Shown here piece by piece: positions 51,923-57,610 of a DNA stretch of 64,000 nt. This DNA is from Mycetocola zhujimingii. GTDB taxonomy: Bacteria > Actinomycetota > Actinomycetes > Actinomycetales > Microbacteriaceae. Every line of letters starts with the position of its first letter. The first letter of the stretch is position 1. The notes beneath the pieces are model-generated. The model did not search any database and had not been told where the DNA came from. It was given only the letters and a program-made list of their open reading frames with translations. Location of the stretch: NCBI RefSeq assembly GCF_003065425.1, contig NZ_CP026949.1:2170001-2234000 (forward strand), given 5' to 3'. A program made the translations under genes and the position numbers.

Positions 51923-52348
51923 GTGACAGCCCTGAAGACCGCGCCACGTGACCGAGATCCCCAGGCGCTCATCGAGACGATCGAGGATGAGCGCAAACGC
52001 GCAGACGCCGCACGCCTCATCCACCTGATGGCGGATGCAACGGGTGAGCAACCACAGCTCTGGGGCCCGTCGATCGTCGGTTTCGGCTCGTTTCACTACC
52101 GCTACGCCACCGGGCGCGAGGGTGACACGATGAAGGTCGGGTTCGCCCCGCGGAAGAACGCACTCACCCTGTACGGACTCCAGGGTCACGCGCAGAGCAA
52201 CCAGCTTCTGGCATCGCTGGGAAAGTTCACCCTCGGCAAGGGCTGTGTCTACATCAAACGACTCGACGACATCGACCTCTATGTGCTGCGGGAACTCATC
52301 GCCCACGCGTACGCGGAAGCGGATGGTTCGCTCGATTCAGAGCCATAA
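51923..52348 (+). CDS. DUF1801 family protein
   Basis: A 141-aa soluble protein. WGPSIVGFGSFHYRYATGREGDTMKVGFAPRKNALTLYGL is typical of DUF1801 (YdhG-like fold), as is KGCVYIKRLDDIDLYVLRELI near the end. The role is unknown. The start is taken as GTG 51923, with CACCAT 6 nt upstream as a weak leaderless element; GTG 51917 is the alternative. Upstream of the glycan operon but separated from it by 188 bp. Confidence 0.82.
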   Translation: MTALKTAPRDRDPQALIETIEDERKRADAARLIHLMADATGEQPQLWGPSIVGFGSFHYRYATGREGDTMKVGFAPRKNALTLYGLQGHAQSNQLLASLGKFTLGKGCVYIKRLDDIDLYVLRELIAHAYAEADGSLDSEP

Positions 52349-52536: not shown

Positions 52537-54225
52537 ATGACAACACTCGAGCATCGTTCCCGTCCGTCGAGGACACTGGTCACCGAACCCGTGCTGCCGC
52601 CACGGTCGACCGAGAGCACCAAGCCGCAGTCCCCCTCCCTGGTTCTGCTGGTTCTCATCGCGACGATCGGCATCCTTGCGTACGCGGGTTTCCTCCTGAA
52701 TCCGGCAAGCCGTGGCGACTGGCTGCCGTACCTGATGGTCGTCACTGCCGAATCAATACTGATCATGCAGGCACTCTTCTCCATGTGGACCATCCTGTCG
52801 GCGGCGCACGATCCCCGGGACTTCGCCTTCCACCAGGCGCACGGCTCCCTCTTCCGGCCGCGGGACATCAGGCGGGACGGTTTCGGCGGATCGCCGGAGC
52901 ACTGGGTGATGTACCTGTCGGACACACCTGTATCCGTGGACGTGTTCATCACGACATACGGAGAAGACCTCAACACGATCCGACGCACGGTGAACGCCGC
53001 AATCGCCATGACCGGAGCACACCTCACCTGGGTTCTCGACGATGGCAGGTCGGACGAGGTGAAATCACTGGCTGCCGAACTCGGGGCACGATACGTGCGC
53101 CGACTCAGCTCCGGCGGCGCGAAGGCGGGCAACGTCAACCACGCCCTCTCGCTGACCAAGGGCGACTTCTTCATGATCCTCGATGCTGACTTTGTCCCGA
53201 ACGAGAATTTCCTCGTCGAAACCGTGCCCTTCTTCGCTGATGAGAAGGTGGCTTTCGTCCAGACGCCGCAGAGCTACGGCAACCTGCACAACGTCATCTC
53301 GCGCGGCGCCGGATACATGCAGTCGGTCTTCTATCGCTTCATCCAGCCGGGACGCAACAGGTTCAATGCGGCGTTCTGCGTCGGCACCAACGTCATCTTC
53401 CGCCGCGCGGCCGTCGCCGACATCGGGGGCCTGTACACCGACTCGAAGTCGGAAGACGTCTGGACCTCCCTCATGCTTCACGAGCGGGAGTGGCGAACCG
53501 TCTACATCCCCCTCGTCCTCGCCGTCGGTGATGCGCCGGACACCATCGAGGCCTATACGAAGCAGCAACTGCGATGGGCGACGGGCGGATTCGAGATCCT
53601 TCTTCGACACAAACTGTTCAGCCGACGGAGCAGGCTGACCCTGGACCAGAGACTGCAATACCTCGTCACCGGCTCTTTCTACCTCACCGGGATTTCACCG
53701 CTGCTGCTGTTGCTGGTGCCTCCGCTGGAAATCTACTTCGACCTTCGCCCTGTGCATATGTCCACGACGGTCGGTACCTGGGTCCTGTATTACGCCGGCT
53801 TCTACGTTTTACAGATCGTCCTGGCGTTCTACACGATGGGCTCATTTCGCTGGGAGACGCTGATGCTCGCCACGGCATCCTTTCCGATCTATACCACCGC
53901 CCTGTTCAACGTCCTCGTGGGGAGGGAGCAGCGGTGGACTGCAACGGGCAATCGGGATCACCAGAGTTCACCGTTCAACGTGATCGTGCCCCAGGTGCTG
54001 TTTTTCACCTTCCTCCTGCTCACCTCGATGGTCGCTGTCTGGCGTGACACCGACAACGCCATGTTGACCCTAGCGACGGCCTGGAATGTCACGAATACGC
54101 TCATCCTCGGCGGATTCGTCGTAACAGCTCTCCGGGAACATGCAACGGTCTCGAAGCCTGCCCGCACCCGGGCGCTTTCCGCAGAGCCCGCGGCATCCGT
54201 TACGGCAGTGACGGTGGCGTCGTGA
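52537..54225 (+). CDS. Processive GT2 glycan synthase (cellulose/curdlan-synthase-like)
   Basis: A 562-aa membrane glycosyltransferase. Two N-terminal membrane segments (~35-54, ~63-88), a cytosolic GT2 domain (~130-350), and five C-terminal segments follow. All processive-synthase motifs are present: D168-D169 (VLDDG), D216-A-D218 (ILDADF), S305-E-D307 in place of the usual TED, and Q343-xx-R346-W347. No PilZ domain, so no direct cyclic-di-GMP control is visible. AAGAG precedes the ATG. It overlaps the next gene by 4 bp. The partner GH81 suggests a beta-1,3-containing glucan made from UDP-glucose. Hyaluronan- or cellulose-like products are not excluded. Confidence 0.9.
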   Translation: MTTLEHRSRPSRTLVTEPVLPPRSTESTKPQSPSLVLLVLIATIGILAYAGFLLNPASRGDWLPYLMVVTAESILIMQALFSMWTILSAAHDPRDFAFHQAHGSLFRPRDIRRDGFGGSPEHWVMYLSDTPVSVDVFITTYGEDLNTIRRTVNAAIAMTGAHLTWVLDDGRSDEVKSLAAELGARYVRRLSSGGAKAGNVNHALSLTKGDFFMILDADFVPNENFLVETVPFFADEKVAFVQTPQSYGNLHNVISRGAGYMQSVFYRFIQPGRNRFNAAFCVGTNVIFRRAAVADIGGLYTDSKSEDVWTSLMLHEREWRTVYIPLVLAVGDAPDTIEAYTKQQLRWATGGFEILLRHKLFSRRSRLTLDQRLQYLVTGSFYLTGISPLLLLLVPPLEIYFDLRPVHMSTTVGTWVLYYAGFYVLQIVLAFYTMGSFRWETLMLATASFPIYTTALFNVLVGREQRWTATGNRDHQSSPFNVIVPQVLFFTFLLLTSMVAVWRDTDNAMLTLATAWNVTNTLILGGFVVTALREHATVSKPARTRALSAEPAASVTAVTVAS

Positions 54226-54953
54226 CCTGGCGGAGCCGGCTGCGGCTCATCTCAGGGCTGGTGGTTGTTCTCGGGATCGTCGCCGTTCTCACGCTCGTTT
54301 TCACCCAGCGACAATCACAGGTGGCGAGCGACAGCGCCTCGATCGAGGCCGAGCGATTCCCGATCGGCATCGACTACGGCGGAACCGTCGTGGAACGCCT
54401 CGTGGACGAGGGAGACCTGGTGGCCCAGGGCGACCCGCTCTTCGTTGTCCTCAGCACGAGCCTCCAGGCGGATCTCGCCGACGGCCTTCTGAAGCCGGAA
54501 ACCATCGCATACGCGGTGACCGCAGATGGCACCATCACCCTCACGGCCGCCGTGGCCGGAACGGTGCGCGACGTGACGACCGAGCGGGGATCGTTCGTCC
54601 AGGCGGGACAGGTACTCGCTACGGTCGACCGCGCCGGTTCGCTCTTCGTCACCGCTGAGTATGAACTCACAAGCCGCGACTACGGCCGCATCGAGAACGG
54701 CGCGGAGGTCACGCTGCTGCTTCCTGACGACCAGCGGATAGCCGGAACCGTGACGTCGGTTCAGGTGTCGACGAGTGAGGGAATCGCCCAAACGGTGGTC
54801 CTCGTTCACAGCGACGAGCTTTCCGATGGCGGGCATAACGGCCTCATGGCGCGAGGCACTCCCGTCACGGCGACCCTGCAATTGCGCAACGACGGCGTTC
54901 TCGCCGGCGTGAGCGACGGGCTCTTCGATTTCTTCCGGAAGATCGGGGTGTGA
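54222..54953 (+). CDS. HlyD/membrane-fusion-like accessory protein of the glycan synthase
   Basis: A 243-aa single-pass protein: membrane segment at residues ~9-28, then an extracellular part with two half-lipoyl stretches (GGTVVERLVDEGDLVAQGDPLFVV and AAVAGTVRDVTTERGSFVQAGQVLATV) and a C-terminal beta-barrel-like region with IENGAEVTLLLPDDQRIAGTVTSV. This is the biotinyl-lipoyl / HlyD organisation, but without a long coiled-coil hairpin. GTG start overlapping the synthase stop (GTGA) means coupled translation. GT2 synthases of mixed-linkage glucan in Sinorhizobium are paired with a membrane-fusion protein (BgsB), the precedent for this role. Confidence 0.82.
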   Translation: MTWRSRLRLISGLVVVLGIVAVLTLVFTQRQSQVASDSASIEAERFPIGIDYGGTVVERLVDEGDLVAQGDPLFVVLSTSLQADLADGLLKPETIAYAVTADGTITLTAAVAGTVRDVTTERGSFVQAGQVLATVDRAGSLFVTAEYELTSRDYGRIENGAEVTLLLPDDQRIAGTVTSVQVSTSEGIAQTVVLVHSDELSDGGHNGLMARGTPVTATLQLRNDGVLAGVSDGLFDFFRKIGV

Positions 54954-54954
54954 C

Positions 54955-56979
54955 GTGCGCGAACGACTGTCACGACTTCTGGGCGCGACGCTGATCGGCG
55001 CGATCGTGGTGTCGCTCGGTGGCTGCGCCTGGGCAGAAAGGGCCGCGAACGAGCCGGCCCTGACGTCGGCAACGACACCCATCTACGCGACGGACGAAAT
55101 CGCCGCGTCCGTCGACGCCGTTCCTCAGCGAACCGTCAAGCCGCTCCCGGCATCCCGGCTGGCGTCCGGCCTCATCCCGCCAACCAACCGGTGGTTCTCC
55201 GGCCTCGTCTTTGGCGAACCGTCGATGCCGGTTTTCCCACTCCCGCTCTCGTTCCAGCTGACCGACGATGGCATGGACTTTGGGCTTCCCACGATCTCCA
55301 CGTCGCCGGCGGCGATCATGGGAGGGTTCTCGGCTGCGGTGTCGGTCGATGTGGGTGCCCAGGAGCACGAAGTCATCGCTTACGACACGGCAACCGTCAC
55401 GGTGGCCCAGCTCTCCGGGGGCGCGGAGATCGGCCGTACGGTGATCGCGCGGGGTTCACCATTTGTCACCTTCAGTGCATCGCGTGACACCACAGTGCGG
55501 TTCGGCTCCGCGTTCAGCCCGGTCGAGGATTCAGTGGCCTTCGCAACAGTCGATAGTGTCGAGTACGGACTCGTGTCAGATGCCCCACTGGCGACCGACA
55601 GCGGGTCCGTCACCCTCAGCGGGGGCGAGAGCGCGACATGGTTCGCTGTCCCTCAGGGCGGCAACCGCGACGAGCTCGCCACTGCGGCGGGTAACCGCCT
55701 CACCGGGACAAGCGTCAGCTATGCCCTTGCCGACGGCACCGCGAGCACGGCCCTGACCTACAACCTGGAAGCAGCAGGACCGACACTGGTGGCCGTGATG
55801 CCGCACCAGTCGTCGACGGACGCCGATTGCACGCACGGCACCTACGAGAGCATCTACGGCGAGCTGCAGCTGTGCCGGGCGGAAACACTCAGCTGGACGG
55901 TTCCCCGCCTGGAGCCGTCGGGCACTCTCGCCCTCGACTCGCTGGAATCCGAGGACCGCGAGCGACTGCTCAGGCAGCTCGAGGCCGATGCGCTCAGCAC
56001 ACCGGCATTTCCCGCGGACACCTACTTCGGCGGCAAAGCGCTCTACCGGTCAGCGAACCTCCTCAGCATTGCCCGCGAGCTTGGAGCGGACGACGTCGCT
56101 GCGAGTCTCGAGGACCGCCTCATCCGTGAAATCAACTCGTGGATGGAGCCGGACGGCTGCGAAACCCGAGATGCCCGGTGCTTCGTCTACGATCGTGACG
56201 CGCGCGGTCTTGTCGGCCTCCAGCCCTCCTTCGGCTCCGACGAGTTCAATGACCACCACTTCCACTACGGCTACCTGTTGTACGCGGCCGCCGTCGTCGC
56301 GGCCGGCCGCGACGAGGTGACCGAGAAATGGGCGCCGGTGATGAACCTCGTGGCCGCAGACCTCGCCACCAGCGGGTCAAGCGAGTACTTTCCGGAGCGC
56401 CGGGTGTTCGACGCGTACGCCGGGCACTCCTGGGCGAGCGGCACCGCCCCGTTCCGTGACGGAAACAACCAGGAATCGAGCTCAGAAGCAGTGACGGCCT
56501 GGAACGGACTGGCGCTGTGGGCCGAGGTGAGCGACCAGCCCGCGTTGCTCACCGAAGCGACGTGGATGCTGTCCGCCGAGGCGGCATCCGCACGGGAATA
56601 CTGGACCGACTTCCCGCTGGACTCCCCCGTGTACTCCGGCTTCGACCACACCGTCACCTCTCTCGTGTGGGGAGGCAAACGCGACTACGCCACGTGGTTC
56701 AGCGCGGAGCCGAGTGCGATGCTGGGGATTCTTGTCCTGCCGATGAGCCCGGTTTCCGGCTACCTTGCCGGAGACTCCGATCGGATACAGGCGAATGTCG
56801 CTGAGGCTGCTCCCGCCGGATTCGATGTTCTCTTCGGCGACTACCTGCTCATGTACTCGGCACTCGCCGGAGCGGATGCCGCCGCAGCGGCGCGCGACGC
56901 TGTACCCGCGCTGCCCGAGTCACGCATCGACGACGGCAACAGCCGAACCTACCTGCTGGCGTGGATCCTGTCGCGCTGA
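54955..56979 (+). CDS. GH81 endo-beta-1,3-glucanase-like lipoprotein
   Basis: A 674-aa exported protein: signal peptide with lipobox LGGC (Cys24), an N-terminal beta-sandwich (PTNRWFSGLVF near 75-85), and a C-terminal (alpha/alpha)6 barrel. GH81 catalytic features are present: FNDHHFHYGY (Asp433) and DGNNQESSSEA (Asp502, Glu507, Glu511), plus GHSWASG. The family hydrolyses internal beta-1,3 bonds. Lipid-anchored next to the synthase, it may trim, release or edit the nascent polymer, as BcsZ does for cellulose. GTG start 1 bp after the MFP stop. The family call is on motifs; activity is inferred. Confidence 0.88.
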   Translation: MRERLSRLLGATLIGAIVVSLGGCAWAERAANEPALTSATTPIYATDEIAASVDAVPQRTVKPLPASRLASGLIPPTNRWFSGLVFGEPSMPVFPLPLSFQLTDDGMDFGLPTISTSPAAIMGGFSAAVSVDVGAQEHEVIAYDTATVTVAQLSGGAEIGRTVIARGSPFVTFSASRDTTVRFGSAFSPVEDSVAFATVDSVEYGLVSDAPLATDSGSVTLSGGESATWFAVPQGGNRDELATAAGNRLTGTSVSYALADGTASTALTYNLEAAGPTLVAVMPHQSSTDADCTHGTYESIYGELQLCRAETLSWTVPRLEPSGTLALDSLESEDRERLLRQLEADALSTPAFPADTYFGGKALYRSANLLSIARELGADDVAASLEDRLIREINSWMEPDGCETRDARCFVYDRDARGLVGLQPSFGSDEFNDHHFHYGYLLYAAAVVAAGRDEVTEKWAPVMNLVAADLATSGSSEYFPERRVFDAYAGHSWASGTAPFRDGNNQESSSEAVTAWNGLALWAEVSDQPALLTEATWMLSAEAASAREYWTDFPLDSPVYSGFDHTVTSLVWGGKRDYATWFSAEPSAMLGILVLPMSPVSGYLAGDSDRIQANVAEAAPAGFDVLFGDYLLMYSALAGADAAAAARDAVPALPESRIDDGNSRTYLLAWILSR

Positions 56980-57479: not shown

Positions 57480-57537
57480 GTCTTGGACCTCGGGGCGAAT
57501 TCTCGCTGGGGGGTTCGTACGTGGAACAGGGATGGTG

Positions 57538-57610
57538 TGGACCTAAGGAGATTCGAACTCCTGACCTCCTCGATGCGAACGAGGCGCGCTACCAACTGCG
57601 CCATAGGCCC
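57538..57610 (-). tRNA. tRNA-Ala (anticodon CGC)
   Basis: The minus strand folds as a 73-nt tRNA: acceptor GGGCCTA/TAGGTCC with one G-U pair and discriminator A, D-loop AGTTGGTAG, anticodon stem CTCGT..ATCGAG with loop holding CGC, and T-arm GAGTTCGAATCTC. It reads GCG. No CCA encoded. Confidence 0.95.

Follow-up and report, generated by a model that had tools for sequence, protein, structure and literature searches.

Which polymer would be made by a locus in which a processive family-2 glycosyltransferase (GT2), an HlyD-type adaptor and a homologue of the family-81 endo-beta-1,3-glucanases (GH81) follow one another on the same strand? Such a locus is located at positions 52537..56979 of a 64,000-nucleotide stretch of the 3.19 Mb genome of Mycetocola zhujimingii (contig NZ_CP026949.1, positions 2,170,001 to 2,234,000; this whole stretch is referred to as the window). 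Our analysis suggests, with moderate confidence, that this operon encodes a self-contained machinery for synthase-dependent exopolysaccharide production, and that its product is, most likely, a linear, curdlan-type beta-1,3-glucan.

Organisation of the three-gene locus

Inspection of the open reading frames (ORFs) of the window revealed the three genes in tandem, head to tail, on the + strand, encoding the GT2 and proposed beta-1,3-glucan synthase (52537..54225, 562 aa), the adaptor (54222..54953, 243 aa) and the GH81 homologue (54955..56979, 674 aa). The GTG start codon of the adaptor overlaps the GT2 stop codon by 4 bp (GTGA at 54222..54225, + strand), an arrangement that points to translational coupling and recurs in relatives, and a single base (54954) separates the adaptor from the GH81 gene. 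The ORF check thus agreed with the coordinates, overlap and gap reported in an earlier reading of the window made from the letters alone (referred to as the sequence-only reading). The GT2 start was taken as the ATG at 52537; an upstream TTG (52444) is also possible, and close relatives can share the ATG position.

The GT2 protein scored above the cut-off of several Pfam GT2 families and is predicted to hold a GT-A domain between membrane helices, in a BcsA-like fold. Its catalytic motifs (DDG at residues 168–170, DAD at 216–218, SED at 305–307 and QQLRW at 343–347, the latter encoded by 53563..53577 on the + strand) are intact, with the D, DxD, ED and QxxRW residues, including Q343, Q344, R346 and W347, invariant in our alignments A1 and A3. 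This corroborates the processive GT2 of the sequence-only reading, which would have been refuted by a grouping with chitin or hyaluronan synthases; the most similar enzymes turned out to be cellulose-synthase-like instead. No Pfam match to a PilZ domain was found in the GT2, the last membrane helix of which ends around residue 539 and is followed by only some 20 residues of low confidence. A quick maximum-likelihood tree built from 56 GT2s placed the 31 GH81-linked ones in one clade (SH-aLRT 99), separate from BgsA, BcsA, other Microbacteriaceae GT2s and a second GT2 of Cellulomonas; the deeper order of this tree is unsure because several long branches meet there.

The adaptor matched the Pfam family HlyD_3 (6.7e-14) and carries one N-terminal membrane helix, followed by a predicted barrel-sandwich (lipoyl) domain (residues ~43–137) and a beta-barrel (~140–222), in support of the lipoyl/HlyD-like single-pass protein proposed earlier. 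The alpha-helical hairpin that reaches an outer-membrane channel is absent from it, and only one short helix (79–86) is located inside the barrel-sandwich domain. In a further comparison, many of the matches of the adaptor were biotin-carrier domains, with only about 70 residues matched. Since the adaptor gene overlaps that of the GT2 and is duplicated together with it in two other loci (L227 and L231), its protein probably belongs to the export complex.

The GH81 protein matched Glyco_hydro81C (PF17652) with 180.5 bits (cut-off 25.6, E 7.1e-53) and remained below the cut-off of the N-terminal model PF03639 (18.4 versus 25.6 bits), and its residues 72–671 aligned to the GH81 structure 6fop (E 1.7e-59). 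We take D433 (56251..56253, + strand), within NDHHFHYGY, to be the catalytic acid of GH81, and E507 and E511 (56473..56487, + strand), within NNQESSSEA, presumably mark the region of the catalytic base. Among 108 aligned GH81 rows (98 distinct loci), D433 was present in 108 and both glutamates in 105, i.e. wherever the region exists, as two of the three remaining rows (L120 and L157) are cut by the end of the stretch and the third (L122) has an early frame end. GH81 enzymes are described as endo-beta-1,3-glucanases in PMC9609564 and by PDB chain names; a search of PMC9609564 yielded no passage on GH81 catalytic residues.

The GH81 N-terminus is a signal sequence ending in a lipobox (LGGC, residues 21–24), which supports, as a prediction, the lipid anchor of the sequence-only reading. 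A loose pattern detected a lipobox in 55 of 78 operon GH81s, with two more visible by eye, and up to 20 rows from Cellulomonas and Actinotalea revealed a hydrophobic N-terminus without cysteine. Judging from these sequences, the protein seems to be lipid-tethered in most families, whereas in Cellulomonas, where start codons are uncertain and N-terminal cleavage is possible, a hydrophobic N-terminus seems to hold it. Its apparent fixation to the membrane suggests that closeness to the synthase matters.

Conservation across actinobacterial genomes

Conservation of the locus was examined among 249 genomes of the same family, in which a GT2 was called close at an identity of at least 62% to that of the window. 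This revealed 30 close GT2 loci in 28 genomes, with the next GT2 matches at 36% identity or less, and all 30 loci encoded a GH81 C-terminal domain immediately downstream. In each of the 29 loci extracted besides the window, GT2, adaptor and GH81 were found in this order on one strand. Named genomes were scanned as well, and among the best 80 of the 518 relatives obtained, 78 loci had the same three genes, the other two reaching a contig end after the adaptor. Both sets have ten loci in common, so that all three genes were present in 98 of 100 distinct loci, including the window. The sequence-only reading had called for such a neighbourhood survey, and in both sets the GH81 gene proved to be kept with the GT2. 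With the start codons of relatives chosen by script, the 4-bp overlap between GT2 and adaptor recurred in 27/29 family loci, 75/80 named loci and 93/99 distinct relatives.

The 80 named loci included those of Cellulomonas, Cellulosimicrobium, Sanguibacter, Oerskovia, Isoptericola, Demequina, Microlunatus, Curtobacterium, Frigoribacterium, Cryobacterium and Agromyces, and two distant loci (L232 and L233, with GT2s of 59% and 53% identity) retained all three genes as well. Six stretches with GT2s of approximately 34–41% identity (L234–L239) carried neither adaptor nor GH81, and ten same-family stretches with lower-identity GT2s (L067–L076) yielded no adaptor or GH81 match. Across the phylum, 396 sampled genomes produced nine matches at E 1e-60, all of which, except that of the source genome itself, were 35–46% identical. 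Moreover, the family sample contained five further genomes of this genus, none of which gave a GT2 match at E 1e-40, indicating that the distribution of the operon is patchy.

The GT2 and GH81 trees split the Microbacteriaceae similarly, with for example Demequina beside Agromyces and Microbacterium. In the GH81 tree, the 30 operon GH81s formed one clade (100) together with a variant from genome G220, apart from seven other GH81s. No fourth conserved gene accompanied the operon: the commonest flanking family occurred in only 23 of the 80 named loci, suggesting that the shared core consists of three genes, and the leading flanking gene sets were discarded because they resembled synteny within a lineage or spurious frames in high-GC DNA.

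Some relatives departed from the standard layout. Tandem copies were observed at L227, L229, L230 and L231, in a Cellulomonas genome (G565) and in genomes of family code f10; L227 and L231 have two GT2-adaptor pairs with one common GH81, and in L230 each copy has its own. The operon also appeared in a record titled as an Acidobacteria metagenome-assembled genome (G2_35, L118), a title that is probably wrong.

Proposed product and rival readings

The donor sugar, linkage, export path and role of the GH81 protein that we infer for this operon are as follows. The GT2 would polymerise glucose from UDP-glucose on the inner face of the membrane and thread the glucan through its own BcsA-like membrane pore. 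The adaptor, held in the membrane by its one helix and coupled in translation to the GT2, would form a short collar or chaperone at the outer face and lead the chain through the thick wall, without the long hairpin that contacts a partner in two-membrane cells. On the outer membrane face, the GH81 protein may cut beta-1,3 stretches of the same polymer, by which it could release, trim or clear stalled chains and later depolymerise stored glucan. The constant presence of a beta-1,3-glucanase that keeps its active-site residues speaks for beta-1,3 stretches in the polymer. As far as sequences can tell, a beta-1,3 polymer with the GH81 protein as a trimming or releasing enzyme would be the best reading, and the Cellulomonas operon adds support to it.

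In Cellulomonas, an operon-type GT2 was found in 51 of 81 genomes, in one of which (G548, L228) it is split over two frames by gene decay or assembly error; two further genomes carried only paralogues of 32–40% identity. The full operon is present in the genomes assigned to C. flavigena, C. fimi and C. gilvus (L222–L224). Young et al. (2012) reportedly found that Cellulomonas curdlan is stored under nitrogen limitation and dissolved later. C. flavigena is described as a curdlan producer (PMC3544764, PMC3035266), and PMC3544764, which cites a 1990 patent on a curdlan-type glucan of Cellulomonas, describes two GT2s per Cellulomonas genome that are 35–39% identical to the curdlan synthase of Agrobacterium. 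Locus-tag numbers scaled to genome length fit this pair being the operon GT2 and the second GT2. PMC3544764 calls the way in which C. flavigena reuses its curdlan unclear, and a GH81 beside the synthase would account for it.

Several observations weigh against a curdlan-type product. The closest sequences to the GT2 are cellulose synthases, and neither its fold nor the tree separates beta-1,3 from beta-1,4 enzymes. The GH81 is not exclusive to the operon GT2, as 10 of 38 GH81-bearing family genomes have no close GT2; the GH81s of such genomes are mostly located in open frames of more than 1000 aa. In one of these genomes (G220, L066 4323–9403), an operon-type GH81, placed near that of the window in the tree, adjoins a GT2 of only 33% identity; this locus also encodes a 266-aa protein that matches no Pfam family, and it gave no match to the adaptor, so that a partner swap is possible. 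The parallel divergence that speaks for a conserved unit (pairwise distances among 76 loci were correlated, with GT2-GH81 r 0.87, GT2-adaptor 0.80 and adaptor-GH81 0.80, reached in 0 of 2000 permutations) also follows from shared descent and thus indicates joint inheritance and not contact. Furthermore, motile C. gelida is cited as making no curdlan (Kenyon 2005 via PMC3035266), and C. fimi and other species are described as making only small amounts (PMC3544764), yet C. gelida NBRC 3748 carries a complete operon (L111). A second, BcsA-like GT2 was found at E 1e-80 in 23 of the 81 Cellulomonas genomes, those of C. flavigena, C. fimi and C. gilvus among them, with no match in C. gelida or C. 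uda. Because C. gelida lacks a match, the second GT2 is the better predictor of the difference between C. flavigena and C. gelida.

This might in turn mean that the second GT2 (Cfla_2615 by position) is responsible for curdlan in Cellulomonas and that the operon makes another glucan, such as cellulose or a wall-linked oligomer, which we hold to be rather unlikely but the strongest of the alternatives. The second GT2 matches the reported curdlan difference between C. flavigena and C. gelida and stands closer to BgsA and BcsA in the tree than the operon GT2 does. However, in the genomes of C. flavigena, C. fimi and C. gilvus no GH81 was found in its vicinity, and the C. flavigena copy (L264 7177–9102), the catalytic domain of which holds a long insert, adjoins a MASE1-PAS-SpoIIE gene. 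Moreover, C. uda, which is cited for a curdlan-type biofilm (PMC8832061), carries the operon without a match to the second GT2, so that for this species the operon is the better predictor of curdlan. The constant beta-1,3-glucanase beside the operon GT2 would also be hard to explain if the product had no beta-1,3 bonds. Counted over the Cellulomonas genomes, both GT2s occurred in 9, the second only in 14, the operon only in 42 and neither in 16 (Fisher p 0.0097, uncorrected for relatedness), weakly suggesting that the two are somewhat exclusive, a pattern to be expected if they were alternative routes to similar polymers.

The product could also be a mixed-linkage (1,3;1,4)-beta-glucan, like those of BgsA from Sinorhizobium or RiGT2 from Romboutsia, in which the GH81 protein would cut the beta-1,3 stretches. 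We regard this as improbable, slightly more so than a role of the second GT2 in curdlan synthesis; both alternatives can hold at once, and our estimates for them are not shares of one whole. Isolated 1,3 bonds are poor targets for GH81, and the description of GH81 enzymes as endo-beta-1,3-glucanases also disfavors a mixed linkage. The likeness to BgsBA put forward in the sequence-only reading stood in part: bgsBA likewise pairs a processive GT2 with an HlyD-like single-pass partner, and in each of the genomes of C. flavigena, C. fimi and C. gilvus, as well as in the source genome of the window, the operon GT2 was the best match of BgsA (36% over 285 aa for the window GT2, in a local match that covers its residues 133–409). 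However, the gene order is reversed, and BgsB counts 412 aa versus 243 aa for the adaptor (PMC9495663), with only a 32-residue lipoyl motif in common (hhalign probability 51%). BgsA, at 669 aa, ends in a C-terminus that binds cyclic di-GMP (PMC9495663), a part that is absent from the 562-aa operon GT2, and no GH81 match was found alongside bgsBA in stretch L077. RiGT2 demonstrates that a Gram-positive cell can make an extracellular mixed-linkage beta-glucan with a BcsA-like GT2 (PMC10374906); nevertheless, it is clostridial and carries a C-terminal PilZ domain, for which the operon GT2 has no match, and no GH81 operon is described for it in the sections of PMC10374906 considered.

It is very unlikely that the operon is catabolic or defensive, with the GH81 protein attacking fungal or plant beta-1,3-glucan and the GT2 and adaptor serving an unrelated envelope function from the same transcript, since, even though GH81s elsewhere are described as secreted degrading enzymes (PMC9609564) and the same families have further GH81s, the three genes stay together despite their patchy distribution (with both misses at contig ends) and diverge in parallel, and the operon GH81 appears to be tethered to the membrane and forms a clade apart from the other, mostly larger-framed GH81s.

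Known systems and genomic surroundings

The curdlan-type reading finds a parallel in crdASC of Agrobacterium, also a three-gene synthase-dependent operon with a BcsA-like GT2. One of the two Cellulomonas GT2s to which its synthase CrdS is 35–39% identical is, by position, the orthologue of the operon GT2 (PMC3544764). Unlike the present operon, crdASC belongs to a two-membrane cell, and the likeness is taken from published descriptions. In comparison with the cellulose operon bcsABZC, the gene next to the operon GT2 matches HlyD_3 and not BcsB (as judged at the locus), the GT2 has no PilZ match and scored 230.6 bits against the cut-off of 699.1 of TIGR03030, the curated BcsA equivalog, and the hydrolase is instead a GH81, a beta-1,3-glucanase family. 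BesA is a hairpin-less membrane-fusion protein as well, and serves an efflux pump, whereas the partner gene of the operon adaptor encodes a polysaccharide synthase. The sporangium-matrix system of Actinoplanes was set aside, as it is described with different genes (PMC12691653). On a Bradyrhizobium elkanii plasmid (L078 2403–5698), an HlyD-family gene and a GT2 gene that overlap by 4 bp lie between transposase genes, which is the same pairing in reverse order and in a two-membrane cell.

In the window, the nearest upstream frame lies on the same strand and ends at 52348, so that it may share a transcript with the operon. Downstream, a tRNA-Ala (CGC) gene (57537–57610, – strand) is located about 0.6 kb 3′ of the operon, along with frames on the opposite strand; as five genomes of the genus have no close GT2, an insertion near this tRNA gene is conceivable. 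Rfam at gathering scores detected only tRNA and no regulatory RNA at the window operon, and a promoter scan returned 0 sites, which is uninformative for an actinobacterium. A foreign origin by composition was rejected, as the GC content of the operon (0.61–0.67) is similar to that of its surroundings. A viral or plasmid origin was rejected as well, since no relative was found in viral contigs and plasmid relatives were distant (at most ~32% identical among the 40 of 475 records listed). The galU gene is indeed located 2.4 kb away, on the opposite strand, but its proposed role as supplier of the operon did not hold: among 109 stretches (99 distinct loci, with ~5–7 kb of flanking DNA, or less at contig ends), just 1 had galU next to the operon, and its proximity in the window appears coincidental.

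Significance of the operon

The operon is of a known kind, namely a synthase-dependent beta-glucan operon with a coupled hydrolase, and its make-up is new. No description of a GT2-adaptor-GH81 operon was found in the literature searched, by titles or passages and with most subscription journals outside its coverage, and a search on Microbacteriaceae and curdlan yielded no paper on the topic, as judged by titles. Tentatively, we propose that the synthase, the hairpin-less adaptor and the outer-face GH81 make up a dedicated actinobacterial device for beta-1,3-glucan, in which the polymer-building and the polymer-consuming enzyme would be produced together. This device might be the as yet unassigned curdlan synthase of Gram-positive bacteria, might allow Cellulomonas to store curdlan reversibly, and might have spread as a whole across many actinobacterial families.

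As for the gene behind Cellulomonas curdlan, PMC3544764 offers two candidate GT2s per genome; the operon joins one of these to a beta-1,3-glucanase, which makes the questions of synthesis and reuse testable by gene deletion. It would also represent a short export design for a single membrane, which can be compared with BcsAB and may be usable for making beta-1,3-glucans. Finally, the presence of the operon leads us to expect coats of beta-1,3-glucan in Curtobacterium, Frigoribacterium and similar plant-associated genera.

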